In this document: one piece after another, positions 29,988 to 42,452 of the stretch | Layout of the letters: every line of letters starts with the position of its first letter | Position numbering within the stretch: position 1 is the stretch's first letter | Origin: Methanomicrobiales archaeon | GTDB taxonomy: Archaea; Halobacteriota; Methanomicrobia; Methanomicrobiales; JACTUA01 | Assembly (NCBI GenBank): GCA_015660865.1 | Contig: JACTUA010000001.1 | Coordinates: 326,304-390,303, forward strand | DNA: 64,000 bases | Reading direction: 5' to 3' | Translations under genes and position numbers: made by a program | The notes under the pieces: generated by a model | Databases searched by the model: none | What the model was told of the DNA's origin: nothing | What the model saw: the letters and a program-made list of their open reading frames with translations, nothing else

Positions 29988-30869
29988 ATGAAGTGCGACC
30001 GCTGCAGCCGTGAAGCCATCATCTACCAGCGCTACTCAGGGCTTCATCTCTGCGAGTCGCATTTCCAGGATACCCTGGTGGCACGGGCCAAGAGGACCAT
30101 CCGGGCCCACGGATGGATCCAGACAGGAGACAGGATAGCCATCGCCCTCTCGGGTGGCATGAGCAGCAGCTCCCTCCTCCACTTCCTCTCGGTGCACTTC
30201 GGGATGAGGCGGGACCTCTCGCTGGTTGCCATTACCGTGGACGAGGGCACCGGACCCTGCCGGGACATGGGCCGGATCAAGAGGACCGCCGAAGGGATGG
30301 GTGTCGGATGGGCAGGTACCTCCTTCGCCGAAGAGTTCGGGATCACCCCGGAAATGGGGAATGGACACATCCCCGGCTCATGCCGTGGTATCCTCCGTGG
30401 CCATGCCCTCACCTCTCTTGCCAGCCGGGTGGGGGCAACGAAGCTCGCCCTGGGCACGAACCTCGATGATGAAGCGGGATCTGTGCTCCAGACGGTTCTT
30501 AGGGGGGAGGCGGCCGGACTGATGTGCCATCCACGGCTCGGGAACGGCAGGATCCCCCTGGTCAGGCCCTTCCTCAGGATCCCCGGGCAGGAGGTGGCCC
30601 TCTATGCCCTGCTGAACGTCCCGGGCCCCGTGCAGGAGGTGGGTCCCCATGCCCCCGACAAACAAGGGAGTGAGACCTGGCGGATCCTTGCCGAGTACAC
30701 GAACCGGCACCCTGCAGCGCCGTTCTCCCTTGTCCACCTCAGCGAGGCCCTCTCGGAGATGGAAGGACATACATCCCGGGAACCGTATATCTGCGAGCGG
30801 TGCAGTGGGCCGTGCGTTCCGTCCTGCCCGGCACGCGGGATCCTGGACCAGGTGACCGGCCATGGTTGA
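29988..30869 (+). CDS. Divergent TtuA/Ncs6-family ATP-pyrophosphatase-like protein
   Basis: A 293-residue relative of the tRNA 2-thiolation enzymes TtuA/Ncs6. Both end zinc ribbons are present (N-terminal CDRC and CESH, C-terminal CERCSGPCVPSC). The PP-loop is altered: SGGMSSS (55-61) replaces the usual SGGKDS. Of the catalytic CxxC before GxLR only the second Cys (C132 in GSCRGILRG) remains. The LGTNLDDEA segment is conserved. It may have lost thiolation activity or handle another substrate. A TATA-like GATAAAAG (29962-29969) suggests a leaderless start at 29988. It overlaps the channel gene by eight bases. Confidence 0.8.
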   Translation: MKCDRCSREAIIYQRYSGLHLCESHFQDTLVARAKRTIRAHGWIQTGDRIAIALSGGMSSSSLLHFLSVHFGMRRDLSLVAITVDEGTGPCRDMGRIKRTAEGMGVGWAGTSFAEEFGITPEMGNGHIPGSCRGILRGHALTSLASRVGATKLALGTNLDDEAGSVLQTVLRGEAAGLMCHPRLGNGRIPLVRPFLRIPGQEVALYALLNVPGPVQEVGPHAPDKQGSETWRILAEYTNRHPAAPFSLVHLSEALSEMEGHTSREPYICERCSGPCVPSCPARGILDQVTGHG

Positions 30870-32565
30870 ACCCATGATCGCCTGGAGGTTCCTCGCCGGC
30901 TCGAAACGGCGGGGGATCCTCACCCTCCTCGGGATCTTCCTCCTCGCCATCCTCCTCTTCACCATCACCTTCCATGCCATCTTCCCCCTTCTCGAAGGGA
31001 GGGAGATCTCCTGGCTCCAGGCCCTCCTCTTCATCCTCGAGACGATAACCACGGTCGGCTACGGGGAGCTTCTGCCCTTCAGGAGCGACCTCTCCATCCT
31101 CTTCACCATCGTCCTGATCCTCACAGGCGTCTTCATGATCTTCCTGTCCATCCCCGTCCTCCTCGAGCCCGTCCTCACCCGCATCATCAACACCCCGCCT
31201 CCGACCGGCACCTCCCGGGAGATGAAGGGGCATATCGTCATCGCAGGCTATGGCAACCTGGCCCGGGCGCTCATCGAGAGCCTCATCATCTCGGACCTGG
31301 GGATCGTGATCGTGGAGTCGGACGAGGCTGTCGCACGGGAGGCCCTGGCCAGGTACAGGTCCCGGGTCTCGGTGGTCTGGGGCGATTACATGTCCCCCCG
31401 CACCTGGGAGCATGCCTGGGTGAGGCACGCCCACTCCATTGTCCTCTGCGAGGACGAGAGGACCGCAGCGGAGATCATCCTGGGGGTGAGGGACCAGACG
31501 AGGGGGTCCATCATCGCGGCGGTCGACGACCTCGCGTATGACCGCTACCTCCGGTATGCAGGGGCCGAGTACGTCCTTTCGCCGAAGAACTCCACGGGGA
31601 AGATCCTCGCCCGGCACGCGGTGATGCGGCCCGACGTCGATACCATCTTCGAGGCCATCAGCCTCGACCACATGAAGCTCGAGGAGGGCAGGGCCGGCGA
31701 CGGGACCCTCAAGCTCGTGAAGGTGCCGGTCATGCCCGGGTGCATCGCCTTCGGGAAGAGCCTGGGGGATCTCCGGCTCTACGAACGCTACGGCGTGGAC
31801 CTCCTCTTTCTCTGGAAGGCAGGCGAGTTCCTCTCATCGCCGGGAAAGGAGGACATCATGGATGCCTCCACCATGCTCTTCCTCCTGGGAAAGGCCTCCT
31901 CGGTCTCCGAGGTCCTTGACCGGGAGTTCTGCGTCCGCGAGGTGGGGGAGCCCACGGCAGTCATCGCAGGGTACGGGGACGTGGGCAAGGCAGCCTTCCA
32001 CGAGCTCTCCGGGGCAGGCATCCGGTGCACCGTCGTCGACAGGAAGAGCCACGGCATCAGCGAGGTGGTGGGGAACGCCGAGGATGAGGCGATCCTGAAG
32101 GCGGCCGGGGTGGAAGGTGCCCGGTTCGTGGTCGTGGCGGTCAACAACGACGGGGTGAACATCTTCACCACCCTCGTAGCGAGGAACCTCTCCCCCTCGG
32201 CAAAGATCCTGGCCCGGGCGAACGAACCCGGCTCCGTCGAGAAGCTCTACAGGGCAGGAGCAGATTACGTGGCCCTGCTCCCCACCATCGGCGGGCAGGT
32301 CATTGCGGGGATCATCCTCTCGGACATCGTGCGGGTCCTCGTCGATCTCCCGAACGGGCAGAAGGTTCTCGTGAAGCACCTGACCCGGCATGCCGGGATA
32401 GCCGTCGGGGAGCTCGAGAAGAGAACCGGGGTGCGGATCGTGGGTATCGAGGGGCCGGGCAGGTCGGTGGTCAGGCCCGGTTCCGAAGAGCCCGTCAATG
32501 AGGGGGACTCGGTGATCGCGGTGGGCGTGAACGAAGGTCTGAAGAAGCTCATCCACTTCATTTAA
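30862..32565 (+). CDS. Two-helix potassium channel with twin RCK domains
   Basis: A 567-residue membrane protein. Two membrane helices (about 16-38 and 82-103) flank the pore loop with selectivity filter TVGYGE (64-69). Two cytosolic RCK (TrkA-N/TrkA-C) units follow, the first starting VIAGYGNLARA and the second VIAGYGDVGKA, each with a C-terminal TrkA-C part. Two RCK units in one chain make it resemble the BK/GsuK arrangement rather than MthK, which has one. It probably senses nucleotides or ions. It overlaps the TtuA-like gene upstream. Confidence 0.9.
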   Translation: MVEPMIAWRFLAGSKRRGILTLLGIFLLAILLFTITFHAIFPLLEGREISWLQALLFILETITTVGYGELLPFRSDLSILFTIVLILTGVFMIFLSIPVLLEPVLTRIINTPPPTGTSREMKGHIVIAGYGNLARALIESLIISDLGIVIVESDEAVAREALARYRSRVSVVWGDYMSPRTWEHAWVRHAHSIVLCEDERTAAEIILGVRDQTRGSIIAAVDDLAYDRYLRYAGAEYVLSPKNSTGKILARHAVMRPDVDTIFEAISLDHMKLEEGRAGDGTLKLVKVPVMPGCIAFGKSLGDLRLYERYGVDLLFLWKAGEFLSSPGKEDIMDASTMLFLLGKASSVSEVLDREFCVREVGEPTAVIAGYGDVGKAAFHELSGAGIRCTVVDRKSHGISEVVGNAEDEAILKAAGVEGARFVVVAVNNDGVNIFTTLVARNLSPSAKILARANEPGSVEKLYRAGADYVALLPTIGGQVIAGIILSDIVRVLVDLPNGQKVLVKHLTRHAGIAVGELEKRTGVRIVGIEGPGRSVVRPGSEEPVNEGDSVIAVGVNEGLKKLIHFI

Positions 32566-36394: not shown

Positions 36395-37327
36395 ATGGAC
36401 AGCGAGATGAGAGATCGGGCCCGGGAGGCGGTGCGGCGCATCCTGGAGGCGGCCTCGTACGAGGTGGAGGACCTGGAGAGGCCCCTGGACCTCTCGGCCA
36501 TAGGCGCAGGGGAGTGCGTGATAGTCCAGTGCTCTGATAACGCCGGGGAGATCGGCCAGTTCGACAGGACGAACTACCGGTGCAGGATCGAAGAGAAAGA
36601 GGTGACGAGCCGGAAGCTCCTCTTCACCCTGAACGATTCGGTGAGGACAGAGCACTGCATCCGCTGGGGGATCGGGGATCTCGAGGGGTTCTCCGGGAAG
36701 GCCGCGATCGCCTCCGTCCTCGGCCAGGGCCTCTCCCTCGAGCTCGGCCTTGAGCTCGCGGCCTCCGCCATGCCGGCTCCCGAGGAGGCAGGCCCGGAGC
36801 TCCCCCATGTCCCGGTGAAGGTGGACGAGAAGCGTGCACGGGCCATCTCAGGGGAGAGCGGTGCCGGAATCCTCCGGTTCATCCCCTACTGGCGGTACCA
36901 TTACCGGAGCAGCGGCCAGAAAGGCTACGGGAACCAGGTTGTGACCTTCAACGCCGAGAAGAAGGGGGCGATCAATGCCATCAACGGGGCAGAGACCGGC
37001 GAGGAACTGGGGCAGGTCCAGGTCTCGCCGGTCCCGATCTCCGCCGTGGTACTCCAGCCGATGGTCAAGAAAGATGAGGCAGAGGAGAAGCTCCGCACCC
37101 GCGTCATCGAGGAGCTCACCCAGAAGGTGCGGATCAAGCAGGCGAAGGGGGACACCATCTTCTACGAGGAGCGCATCTTCAAGCCCGAGAGGAAGGACAT
37201 CACCATCGACCTCGAGCTCGTCCACGTGCCGGTCTGGCAGTTCAGGGGGAAGAAGTTCGTGGAGCTGAACGCGGTCACGGGCGTCGTCCTCACCGAGCCG
37301 ATGGACACGGGCGCCGAGCTCCTCTGA
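36395..37327 (+). CDS. Conserved unknown protein next to a flavin oxidoreductase
   Basis: A 310-residue soluble protein not assigned to a family. The N-terminal 110 residues have an alternating helix-strand pattern (RRILEAASYEVEDLERPLDL, GECVIVQCSDN) that could be a restriction-endonuclease-like fold, but no complete catalytic signature is seen. The C-terminal half has paired aromatic strands (RFIPYWRYHYRSSG, VPVWQFRGKKFVELN). A TATA-like CTATAG about 26 bases upstream suggests a leaderless start. The disulfide oxidoreductase follows after seven bases and is probably co-transcribed. Confidence 0.7.
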   Translation: MDSEMRDRAREAVRRILEAASYEVEDLERPLDLSAIGAGECVIVQCSDNAGEIGQFDRTNYRCRIEEKEVTSRKLLFTLNDSVRTEHCIRWGIGDLEGFSGKAAIASVLGQGLSLELGLELAASAMPAPEEAGPELPHVPVKVDEKRARAISGESGAGILRFIPYWRYHYRSSGQKGYGNQVVTFNAEKKGAINAINGAETGEELGQVQVSPVPISAVVLQPMVKKDEAEEKLRTRVIEELTQKVRIKQAKGDTIFYEERIFKPERKDITIDLELVHVPVWQFRGKKFVELNAVTGVVLTEPMDTGAELL

Positions 37328-38838: not shown

Positions 38839-39978
38839 CTACTTGAAATACCCTGAATTGAGGAGCTTTTCAGTGATCCCGGCCCGGAGAGTGGGCCGGA
38901 CATCCTGGAGCCAGAGGAAGAAGCCGAGCATCTTCCTGGACCGGTTGCTTTCGAACTTGAACTGCCCCGGCCTGACCCGGATCATCTTCATGTAATGGTT
39001 CTTATCCCTGGGTTTCATGTAGATGATCGGTTCTGCTTCGGGTAGGTTCACCGTGAGGATGATCTTCGCGAACCGGTTCCGGATCTCCTGGGGGGTGATG
39101 GGCCTCCCTTTCACGGTGAGCCGGATCGAGTTCGAAAAGAGGCTCGCGGCACCCGGTTCAAGGGCCCCCAGGAGAATCTTCTTCACGATGACGGTCGCGG
39201 GATCCCGGGGATCCCCGCCCCTGTAGAGGGAGCCGTTCGCGAGTGCTGAGAAGACCCTGCTCCGCTGGAGATCGTGCATCTGCCGGTACTCGAAGGAGCC
39301 TGCCAGGGGGAGGTCCGGGGCCTCGATGAGCTTGGGGTTCCGGGCGGTCCGCGGAGGGACCCCCCGTATCACCTCCTCGGGCCTGACCAGGGCCTTGATC
39401 GCCTCGCAGGTGGCGGTTGAGAGGTAGAGGTTCGAGGGATCCTCGAGTATCCGGCGCACCGCCGAGATCCGGGAGATGTCGACCGAGGAGACGAGGAGGG
39501 AGGGGACCACCTGCTGGCCGAAGAGGTGGCCCATGAGCCGCTTCTTGTACAGGAACTCCTTCTCGAGCTCCTTCATGGCAGCCGGAGAGGTGACGATCTC
39601 ACCAAAGGCGATGGAGTTCCCCTCACCCACGAGGAGGAGATCGAGCTCGGCCAGGTCCTGGCCGTTCCCCCGGACCTTGATGTCCCCTGACCGGGAGTAG
39701 AAGAGGCCATTCTGCCCGAGCTGCGCCTGCAGCCTCCGGTACCGTGCATCCGGCCCCTTGGACACGACCCGGGTGATCTGGCCGGAGGCAAGGGCGCACC
39801 GGAGGATGGTCTCGTAGATGATCGCCTCGTACCACTTCCCTTCCGCGGTCTTCATGGTCCCCGGGTCGGGGGAGAAGAGGTTCCTCCTCTGGGGGCCGGA
39901 GAGGTGTCGTGTGGCGGCAAGGACGGTGGCCCGGTCGGGCGGGAAGAGGGGGAAGTTCCGGGCCAGCCAGTCGTTCAT
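38839..39978 (-). CDS. Unknown protein, possible degenerate PD-(D/E)xK fold
   Basis: About 379 residues from ATG 39978 (MNDWLARNFPLFP). The segment around ELDLLLVGEGNSIAFGEIVT, after a GKWYEAIIYETIL helix, resembles the core of PD-(D/E)xK nucleases, but the usual lysine after the second acid is missing. The C-terminal third is basic (FKFESNRSRKMLGFF). The frame stays open to a GTG at 40200, adding a 74-residue Arg/Gly/Pro-rich low-complexity leader that may or may not be translated. A TATA-like TTTTATAG lies right at that GTG. No close family is recognised. Confidence 0.6.
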   Translation of the reverse strand: MNDWLARNFPLFPPDRATVLAATRHLSGPQRRNLFSPDPGTMKTAEGKWYEAIIYETILRCALASGQITRVVSKGPDARYRRLQAQLGQNGLFYSRSGDIKVRGNGQDLAELDLLLVGEGNSIAFGEIVTSPAAMKELEKEFLYKKRLMGHLFGQQVVPSLLVSSVDISRISAVRRILEDPSNLYLSTATCEAIKALVRPEEVIRGVPPRTARNPKLIEAPDLPLAGSFEYRQMHDLQRSRVFSALANGSLYRGGDPRDPATVIVKKILLGALEPGAASLFSNSIRLTVKGRPITPQEIRNRFAKIILTVNLPEAEPIIYMKPRDKNHYMKMIRVRPGQFKFESNRSRKMLGFFLWLQDVRPTLRAGITEKLLNSGYFK

Positions 39979-40388
39979 CGGGAAGGCGCCTGCCCTTCGC
40001 AGCTGGGGTAAGGGCTGACCGGGGACGGGGCCGGACCTGCCCCGTCCCCTCCTCCTCCGCCGCCTGCCCTTCCCGGGCGCACCGGGGGACGCACCCCTCT
40101 CGCTGCCCCTTCCCCCTGGGCTGGGGGGGGCCGCGGCCTGGGCATTCCTGACGGGGTTGGCCTTCCCGTCTGCAGATCCTCGCGATTCAACCCTATGCAC
40201 TATAAAATCTCTTCCCGAGATGCATCATAATGGTTTACCCCCGGCCGGCATGGGAGGCGGCCCCGGCCGGGACCAGGAAAGGTCATTTTGAGTGTGTCCG
40301 GGCACGGAATGGGAACCTTCTTCCAGATACCGGCGGAGGGGGATCTTCCAGAAACATTGTAATAGATACATGACCCATTTTTTTACCG

Positions 40389-42452
40389 ATGGGGAGATCT
40401 GAGTACTTCTCCATTCTCGCGGGGGAGATGGGGGTCATCTTCAAGATCCTCGGCCTTGTCACGTGTATACCCCTGGTCATCATCCCCCTCACCGGCGAAT
40501 GGGGGATGCTCCTCCCCATGGCGAGCGTCCCCGTCGCCTTCACCCTCCTCGGGAGGGCTCTCGCCATGCGGCACCCCCCCCAGGGCGAGGCCCGGCTCTC
40601 CATCGTCCTCGGTGCCGTGGCCATCATCTGGTTCAGCTGCGCGGTGATCGGGGCCCTGCCCTTCGCCCTGGGGGCCGGTATGCAGTACGTCGACAGCCTC
40701 TTTGAGGCGATGTCCGGCTGGACCTGCACCGGGCTCACCCTCATCCCCGTGCCGGAGACGATGCCCGCGACGATCCTCTTCTGGCGGTCCTTTATGCAGT
40801 GGCTGGGCGGGATCGGGATGGTCGCCTTCACCATCTCGGTCCTCGCCCGCTCGAGCCTCACGAATGCGCGGTACGTGCGCCCGGGGGGCGAGGGCGCTCC
40901 CTTCATCCCGAGCCTCATCTCCACCGGGAGGGAGATGTGGCGGATCTACGTGCTGCTCACCCTAGGGTCCCTCCTGCTCATCCTCCTCACCGGTGTCCCC
41001 CTCTGGGATGCGGTGAACCTCGCGATGAGCGCCATCTCAACGGGAGGCTTCACCATCCATGCCGCGGGAATCGGGTTCTACGAGAACCCCCTCCTCGAGT
41101 TTGCCCTCGTTCCCGTGATGCTCGCCGGGTCCCTGCCCTTCATGATCTACTACATGCTCTACACGAAGAGGCGCTGGACCCTCTTCCGGGACAGCCAGGC
41201 CCGACTCATCGTGGGGCTCATCGCCCTCGGGACCGTCTCCATCCTCATCGATCTCACCTATATCACGGGCGAGGATCCCTGGACCGCCCTCCGCCACGCC
41301 CTCTTCATGTCCGTCTCGGCCATCACGACCACCGGCTTCCAGAACGTCTCCCTCCAGCTCTGGGCCTCGGTCTCGGTCATCCTCCTGATCATGCTCATGG
41401 CTATCGGAGGGGCCTCGGGGTCCGCGAGCGGCGGGATCAAGGCCTACCGGGTCCTCCTCGGGTACCATGGCCTCATCTGGTGGTTGAAACGGATCTTCGT
41501 CCCCCCGAAGATGGTCGTCCCCTTCGAGTACCAGGGGCAGGTCATCGAGAACGCCGTGGCAGAGAACGAGGTGAGGAACAGCATGCTCGTCATCATGCTC
41601 TACTTCCTCACGGTCTCGGTTGCAACGGTCATCACGCTCCACTTCTCCGCCATCTTCTTCGAATCCACGGCGGTCATCTTCGACGTCGTCTCGGCCATGT
41701 CCAACGTCGGGATCACCACGGGGTTCGTCTCCCCCGATATGCCCTATGTGGCGAAATGGGTCTTCATCCTCGTGATGTGGATAGGAAGGCTCGAGATCGT
41801 GCCGGTCATCATCATCGCCTTCAAGCTCGCCGACCGCTCCATCAGCGACGACACCGCCCAGCTCTCCGAGATCCCGGCCAGGCAGAAGGAGGCGGCGGCA
41901 GCCTCCGTCCGGGTCGTACCACCGGCCGTCCCCCCCTCGCCACCTCCCGAGGATGCATGGAAGTCGGATCTCCTCGCCGGCACAGACATCCGGCCCGACG
42001 CCTTCGAGGCGGTCTTTTCCACCGCCGTGGAGATCTCCCGGGAGGGGCGGGAGGGGAAGCCGATCGGGACTGCATTCATCGTCGGCGACTCCCCGGAGGT
42101 TCTCGCCCGGTCCAAGCAGCTCATCCTCAACCCCTTCGAGGGGCATGACCCTGCAAAAAGGCTCATTACCGACCCCTCCAATGTCGAGAACGTGAAGGAG
42201 TTCGCGCTCCTCGACGGGGTCTTCATCGTGAGCGGCGAAGGGGTGATCGAGGCAGCAGGAAGGTACCTCACCATCGACACCTCCACCGTCCGGATTACCA
42301 TGGGGCTCGGGACCCGGCACGGCTCGGTGGCAGGGATGACCGGGGCCACGCGCTCGGTCGGGATCGTGGTCTCCCAGAGCGGCGGCCGGATCACCGTCTT
42401 CCGGCGCGGGGAGATGGTGAAGCAGTTCGACACCCTCCGGGGATCTCGATGA
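40389..42452 (+). CDS. TrkH potassium transporter fused to a DacZ-like diadenylate cyclase domain
   Basis: A 687-residue protein. Residues 1-480 form a TrkH/KtrB potassium channel with four pore motifs: [28 protein letters not shown] and SNVGITTGF. After a Pro/Ala-rich linker (about 495-525), residues 537-670 resemble the DisA_N/DacZ domain that makes c-di-[33 protein letters not shown] (about 608-615), LGTRHGS (640-646) and VVSQSGGRI. The active-site DGA is DGV and RHR is RHG. Because c-di-AMP controls potassium uptake in many prokaryotes, a self-regulating transporter is a reasonable inference. A T-run terminator follows. Confidence 0.85.

Follow-up and report, generated by a model that had tools for sequence, protein, structure and literature searches.

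How is potassium entry tied to the nucleotide messenger c-di-AMP in archaea? In bacteria, c-di-AMP shuts K+ uptake via separate receptors; to our knowledge, it is unclear how K+ controls c-di-AMP synthesis there, and almost nothing is known of this in archaea. The 64,000-nucleotide stretch of a Methanomicrobiales genome analysed here (the window) contains a gene that seems to join the two functions directly, a TrkH-type potassium channel followed by a c-di-AMP synthase domain. We therefore asked whether the join is real, whether the synthase domain has kept its active site, and what such a domain might do for a channel.

A channel and a cyclase domain in one reading frame

The gene is a single open frame of 687 codons, from an ATG at 40389 to a stop ending at 42452, and its start codon is backed by the N-termini of the orthologues (MGRSEYFSI/MDRIEYFSI). 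The encoded protein begins with a complete TrkH pore, continues through a disordered Pro/Ala-rich linker, and ends in a diadenylate cyclase (DAC) domain, the module that makes c-di-AMP (Table 1). Pfam finds only these two domains: TrkH at residues 77-480 (E 1.3e-47, 163 bits against a curated cut-off of 27) and DAC (PF02457) at residues 551-675 (E 4.6e-16, 58.9 bits against 27), with no DacZ_A/PK_C-like N-terminal domain in the protein. The best match to the DAC domain is the NCBIfam DacZ model (residues 527-681, E 4.5e-30); since the fusion has no DacZ N-terminus, the score stays under the cut-off set for full-length proteins. All four filter segments of the pore are intact, namely SGWTCTGLT (109), ISTGGFT (216), ITTTGFQ (312) and SNVGITTGF (438), with the filter Gly present in each of the four M1-P-M2 P loops, and the conserved GRLE arginine of the last TrkH repeat (467) is kept.

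Structure predictions agree with this layout. An AlphaFold2 model of residues 500-687 has a pLDDT of 90.6, and all 50 of the matches listed for it by Foldseek are DACs of the DisA, CdaA, DacA or CdaM type (best E 9.7e-7, probability 1.00); the TM value of about 0.5 indicates the same fold as the known DACs with local differences. In the full-length model the first 480 residues match TrkH/KtrB (6v4k/4j9u, TMt 0.87) and the tail separately matches DACs, while residues 470-520 fall below a pLDDT of 50 and form an unstructured stretch. A preliminary description of the locus, made from the letters of the sequence, had proposed a TrkH fused to a C-terminal domain of DacZ/DisA_N type and had called for a comparison of predicted structures. 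The single frame, the Pfam matches on both halves, the predicted fold and two orthologues bear out the fusion; Pfam, NCBIfam and Foldseek agree on the identity of the domain, the motifs quoted are present, and the structural comparison returned DisA/CdaA-type folds.

Table 1. Features of the fusion gene and of two other potassium- or nucleotide-related genes in the window.
Feature	Position	Strand	Basis
TrkH-DAC fusion gene, 687 aa	40389..42452, stop included	+	ORF and Pfam; orthologues in G056 and G014
TrkH module, residues 1-480	40389..41828	+	Pfam, Foldseek, motifs
D1-D2 cytoplasmic loop, residues 162-177	40872..40919	+	18 unfused vs 3 fused TrkHs
Intramembrane (gate) loop, residues 340-351	41406..41441	+	alignment of fused vs unfused TrkHs
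Linker, residues 481-526, Pro/Ala-rich, mostly disordered, weakly conserved	41829..41966	+	pLDDT, orthologue identity
DAC (diadenylate cyclase) domain, residues 527-683, Pfam core 551-675	41967..42437	+	Pfam, NCBIfam, AlphaFold2, Foldseek
DGA-type motif, here D609-G610-V611	42213..42221	+	alignment of 57 DACs
Y626, counterpart of the adenine-locking Tyr187 of LmCdaA	42264..42266	+	alignment to 6hvl
GTRH-G motif, residues 641-645; Gly replaces last Arg of RHR	42309..42323	+	motif and alignment
S662, counterpart of the phosphate-contacting Ser222 of Leptospira CdaA	42372..42374	+	alignment
Two-TM K+ channel with two RCK_N/RCK_C modules	30862..32565	+	Pfam; 8 kb upstream of fusion
RCK_N-DHH-DHHA1 protein, 559 aa	688..2367	-	Pfam domains

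The preliminary description had also suggested a survey of TrkH fusions and of separate dacZ genes. A whole-protein search of 232 Methanomicrobiales genomes found three full-length fusions, in the window genome and in two genomes of another genus of the same family (G056 and G014), and the window genome proved to have a canonical DacZ as well; sampling 394 genomes across the phylum yielded no further full-length match. The orthologues, 68% (G056) and 65% (G014) identical to the window fusion, have the same junction, which excludes an assembly artefact. The G014 copy is interrupted by a contig end, with its tail on another contig, and gene order matches the window on both sides (the genes at 36395, 37335 and 38842 upstream, uvrA downstream). 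A chimeric assembly or a mis-joining of two genes was accordingly rejected as having practically no chance of being correct, given the shared junction in two other genomes and the shared neighbours in G014. In G107 and G034 the TrkH frames are longer, but they were rejected as further fusions: they have no DAC, and the match to the whole protein stops around residue 480-500. Our literature searches found no TrkH-DAC fusion; Galperin's survey of DAC architectures was outside their reach, so an earlier mention is possible.

Two of the neighbours are proteins with no Pfam match. One, of 310 residues (36395-37327, plus strand), keeps its place in the gene order of G014 (70% identity over 92 residues), and the other, of 453 residues (38839-40200, minus strand), is 56% conserved beside the fusion in that genome.

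The three fusions form one clade both in the DAC tree (100/98) and in the TrkH tree (100/100), where the fused TrkHs fall beside TrkHs of other families, away from the ordinary TrkHs found in their own family. Between the window and G056 copies, identity is 75.8% in the DAC, 68.0% in TrkH and 40.9% in the linker (linker identity to the two orthologues, 41% and 22%). The corresponding dN/dS values are about 0.25 (DAC) and 0.31 (TrkH), and between G056 and G014 about 0.14 and 0.16, figures that are only rough because dS of both domains is 0.3-1.1 (NG86). By these sequence measures the DAC is under purifying selection and no less constrained than the channel.

Active site and ancestry of the DAC domain

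The DAC motifs were located as GTAF (560-563), NPFEGH (581-586), DGV (609-611), TRHG (642-645) and SQSGG (662-666). The preliminary description had read DGV for DGA and RHG for RHR as ambiguous changes of the active site, which left open whether the domain makes c-di-AMP locally or has become a nucleotide sensor. We believe that it named the right two options; the variants themselves were examined in an alignment of 57 DACs of the order (15 DacZ and 42 non-DacZ). The third residue of the DGA motif is Val in the window fusion, Ala in both orthologous fusions, and Val, Met or Ile in every aligned DacZ. The genome's own DacZ likewise reads DGV, and on this ground DGV was rejected as a mark of inactivation. 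As for the second variant, the fusion lacks the complete RHR motif of bacterial DisA and CdaA, having R643-H644-G645 in its place, and so do nearly all of its relatives: the last Arg is missing in 41 of the 42 non-DacZ DACs (A, S, V, N or G instead), with Gly in all three fusions and Ala, Ser, Val or Asn in 38 of the 39 others. Among the DacZ proteins this position is Arg in 12 of 15 and Leu in the remaining 3. Because the genome's own DacZ is DGV and nearly all non-DacZ DACs lack the last Arg, both variants are mostly lineage background, which is no argument for lost activity and no proof of activity either.

We note that in two genomes (G001 and G013; loci L096 and L098) the sole DAC found is a DacZ with RHL for RHR, so that the last Arg would be dispensable if those genomes make c-di-AMP.

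The remaining core is conserved. D609, G610, G641, R643 and H644 are invariant in all 57 aligned DACs, S662 is conserved in every row of the alignment that reaches its column, and Y626 is present in nearly all. Alanine substitutions in Leptospira CdaA abolished activity when made at the Asp or the first Arg and lowered it when made at the Ser (PMC12974146), and Tyr187 of Listeria CdaA locks the adenine (PMC10167629); in M. tuberculosis DacA, activity was abolished when all three RHR residues were replaced by Ala (PMC3328451), and we found no account of the last Arg replaced on its own. The Asp and the first Arg, essential by mutation, are thus both among the invariant residues, and the Ser is kept.

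A DAC was found in 193 of 199 genomes of the order. A tree of 77 DAC domains has two fully supported sides (100/100), with 20 canonical DacZ proteins on one and 57 others, the fusion among them, on the other. In these non-DacZ proteins the DAC is C-terminal, following REC-PAS-PAS, TPR plus a membrane segment, PKD plus a membrane segment, or TrkH (REC, PAS, TPR and PKD as assigned by Pfam, the membrane segments of the sister DACs as read from their sequences). The window genome encodes as a separate gene a DacZ (DacZ_A sensor plus DAC) of the type known as the canonical archaeal diadenylate cyclase, DacZ/CdaZ (PMC6741144). The fusion DAC is 45% identical to this protein and 60-63% identical to PAS-type DACs, and a search of genome contigs with the DAC returned only two relatives, both PAS-type. 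Derivation from the genome's own DacZ was rejected on the tree and on these identities. Because the two sides separate in the tree, the TrkH-linked DAC is, on phylogenetic grounds, a member of the output-domain lineage and not a copy of the housekeeping enzyme. The window copy has a longer branch in the DAC tree than its orthologues (0.32 vs 0.045).

The fusion also exposes a wider Methanomicrobiales radiation of C-terminal DAC outputs of the REC-PAS-PAS, TPR-TM and PKD-TM types (loci L006-L035, L071, L081, L082, L089 and L094). Genomes carry up to four DAC genes. Nearly all proteins of the radiation lack the last Arg of RHR, and we found no description of it in the open literature searched.

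A missing RCK subunit and altered loops

A separate RCK partner is usual for the prokaryotic members of the Trk/Ktr/HKT family, not for HKT. TrkH and KtrB channels are gated by such a partner, an ATP- or ADP-binding RCK ring formed by TrkA or KtrA (PMC6987127, PMC4714889). In the window genome (98.98% complete, nine contigs) a separate KtrA or TrkA is absent. The only RCK_N domains found are those of the K+ channel and of the RCK_N-DHH-DHHA1 protein in Table 1. The former was considered as a TrkA and rejected, Pfam showing a two-TM K+ channel with RCK repeats; the latter is a candidate phosphodiesterase for c-di-AMP or oligonucleotides, encoded, like the fused synthase, within this 64 kb.

In relatives, KtrA has about 220 residues and adjoins TrkH in G002 and G032. 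To place the absence in context we compared by eye the per-genome tables of the 135 genomes of the order that are 90% complete or more, with contamination no higher than 5%. TrkH is present in 117 of them and KtrA in 116 of those 117; the exception is the window genome, in which the fusion is the sole TrkH. The 16 other good genomes that lack KtrA all lack TrkH too. G014 has a fused TrkH, an ordinary TrkH and KtrA, which would be expected if the ordinary channel is the one that its KtrA serves, and G056, at 56% completeness, holds too little to judge the presence of KtrA. A tie between the loss of KtrA and the fusion is suggestive and not proof, because it comes from a single genome.

Across Methanomicrobiales, a genome with TrkH nearly always has KtrA as well, and one that lacks either nearly always lacks both. 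Several of the 16 near-complete genomes with neither carry TPR-TM or PKD-TM DACs.

The channel itself differs in a loop that an RCK ring would contact. The ring touches the D1-D2 loop and the C-terminus of KtrB; in Vibrio TrkH, Thr175 and Arg177 form one contact and the D3-D4 loop the other (PMC6987127). In the D1-D2 loop the 18 unfused TrkHs have an RSEGR or R-x-E-G-R/K-type motif, whereas the window fusion has RPGGEG and its orthologues RLEEES. Position 168 is Glu in all three fused TrkHs and Arg in 16 of the 18 unfused ones, and the fused proteins also have Y or F for L at 162 and I for V at 177; at 173, the position aligned with Vibrio Thr175, M has become I. The intramembrane loop, part of the TrkH/KtrB gate (PMC6987127, PMC4714889), has A346 and S347 where unfused TrkHs have T and A, and positions 252 and 396 are further changes common to the three. 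By alignment, then, the RCK-contacting loop is altered in all three fusions; because these form one clade, lineage drift is a possible source of the changes.

A possible built-in regulator, its rivals and its relatives

DACs act as face-to-face pairs, and such a pair makes c-di-AMP from ATP. TrkH is a homodimer, so that each channel would carry two cytoplasmic DACs, held on linkers of about 45 residues below the pore, at the position of the RCK ring. The paired domains would bind and turn over ATP and either report to the pore or just release c-di-AMP locally, and output at the membrane would be set by ATP supply and channel state. Bacterial c-di-AMP lowers K+ uptake through RCK_C receptors; here it could restrain K+ uptake or affect K+ efflux, whether directly or via the RCK-bearing K+ channel upstream, a possible c-di-AMP target. 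We favour, with about an even chance of being right, the reading in which the DAC is an active, tethered cyclase that serves as a built-in nucleotide regulator of TrkH in place of KtrA; here we infer that the DAC is catalytic, that it dimerises on the channel and that it is coupled to gating. Because the usual separate regulator is missing in the best genome, sensor, messenger-maker and channel may be combined in one protein. A stronger form is possible but doubtful. In it the covalent DAC would have replaced the RCK ring, and a single chain would combine ATP sensing, c-di-AMP synthesis and a pore that responds to its own catalytic cycle or to the product, closing a K+ feedback in cis.

The case for an active regulator draws on the intact frame, pore motifs and DAC core, on the invariance of D609, G610, R643 and H644 with S662 and Y626 kept, and on a DAC conserved at least as well as the pore and drawn from a clade that serves as C-terminal output of sensor and membrane modules. 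Much of the remaining evidence is shared with an alternative that we consider unlikely, in which the DAC has become a non-catalytic sensor that binds ATP, ADP or DacZ-made c-di-AMP and itself gates TrkH in the manner of an RCK ring. The absence of KtrA in just the one TrkH-bearing good genome of 117 whose sole TrkH is the fusion, and the altered RCK-contacting loop, would suit either. The Gly at the end of RHR, a motif whose full replacement killed M. tuberculosis DacA, counts against catalysis and for a sensor, and the separate DacZ would supply the signal to a sensor and means that a second synthase is not required; DGV in the window copy, against DGA in its orthologues, and its longer branch point the same way. 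A mere binding domain, however, would not appear to need the invariant residues essential for CdaA catalysis, and the sister DACs are attached to sensors, where there is no channel for them to act on, an arrangement that speaks for an enzymatic output. The link to KtrA, for its part, is weakened for the active regulator by its restriction to one genome, with a normal TrkH and KtrA present beside the fusion in G014, and with G056 only 56% complete.

It is improbable, in our judgement, that TrkH only anchors an active DAC near the site of K+ entry, with no conformational coupling and with the RCK K+ channel and further receptors as the targets of c-di-AMP. The disordered, poorly conserved linker, the membrane anchoring of sister DACs with PKD or TPR domains and the K+ channel gene 8 kb away are consistent with simple tethering, but it leaves unexplained both the missing KtrA and the changed D1-D2 and intramembrane loops. 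A functionless DAC, decaying as a passenger in the window genome, would account for DGV and the faster branch, yet at 75.8% identity, with dN/dS about 0.25 and the Asp, Gly, Arg, His and Ser kept, we find this very improbable.

A natural covalent TrkH-DAC link, in a genome without the normal gating subunit, brings K+ flux, ATP and c-di-AMP output within reach of joint measurement in a single two-domain protein. What seems to be new, judged from the sequences, is the absence of KtrA/RCK in this genome together with the loop changes common to the fused TrkHs.

The fusion resembles several known systems in part. With TrkH-TrkA and KtrB-KtrA it shares the TrkH fold, filter and intramembrane loop and a nucleotide-binding module on the cytoplasmic side; its module is a covalent C-terminal DAC where theirs is a separate RCK ring, its RCK-contact loop is changed, and the window genome is without KtrA. 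It has in common with DacZ/CdaZ the DAC core with a DacZ-type N-terminal part (GTAF, NPFEGH), but lacks the DacZ_A sensor domain, has GTRH-x-S for GGRHR, and belongs to a separate clade (100/100). The multi-domain DACs of Methanomicrobiales (REC-PAS-PAS-DAC, TPR-TM-DAC and PKD-TM-DAC) are of the same clade and motif class, with the DAC likewise C-terminal; their N-terminal module is a sensor or anchor, whereas that of the fusion is an ion channel. In CdaA, the membrane-bound bacterial DAC, a membrane part also precedes a cytoplasmic DAC, and the D, R and S active-site residues are kept in both; the membrane part of CdaA consists of three TM helices, and we know of no transport role for it. Finally, CbrA and the Amt-kinase proteins join a transporter domain to a signalling output, as TrkH-DAC does with a different transporter and a different output.
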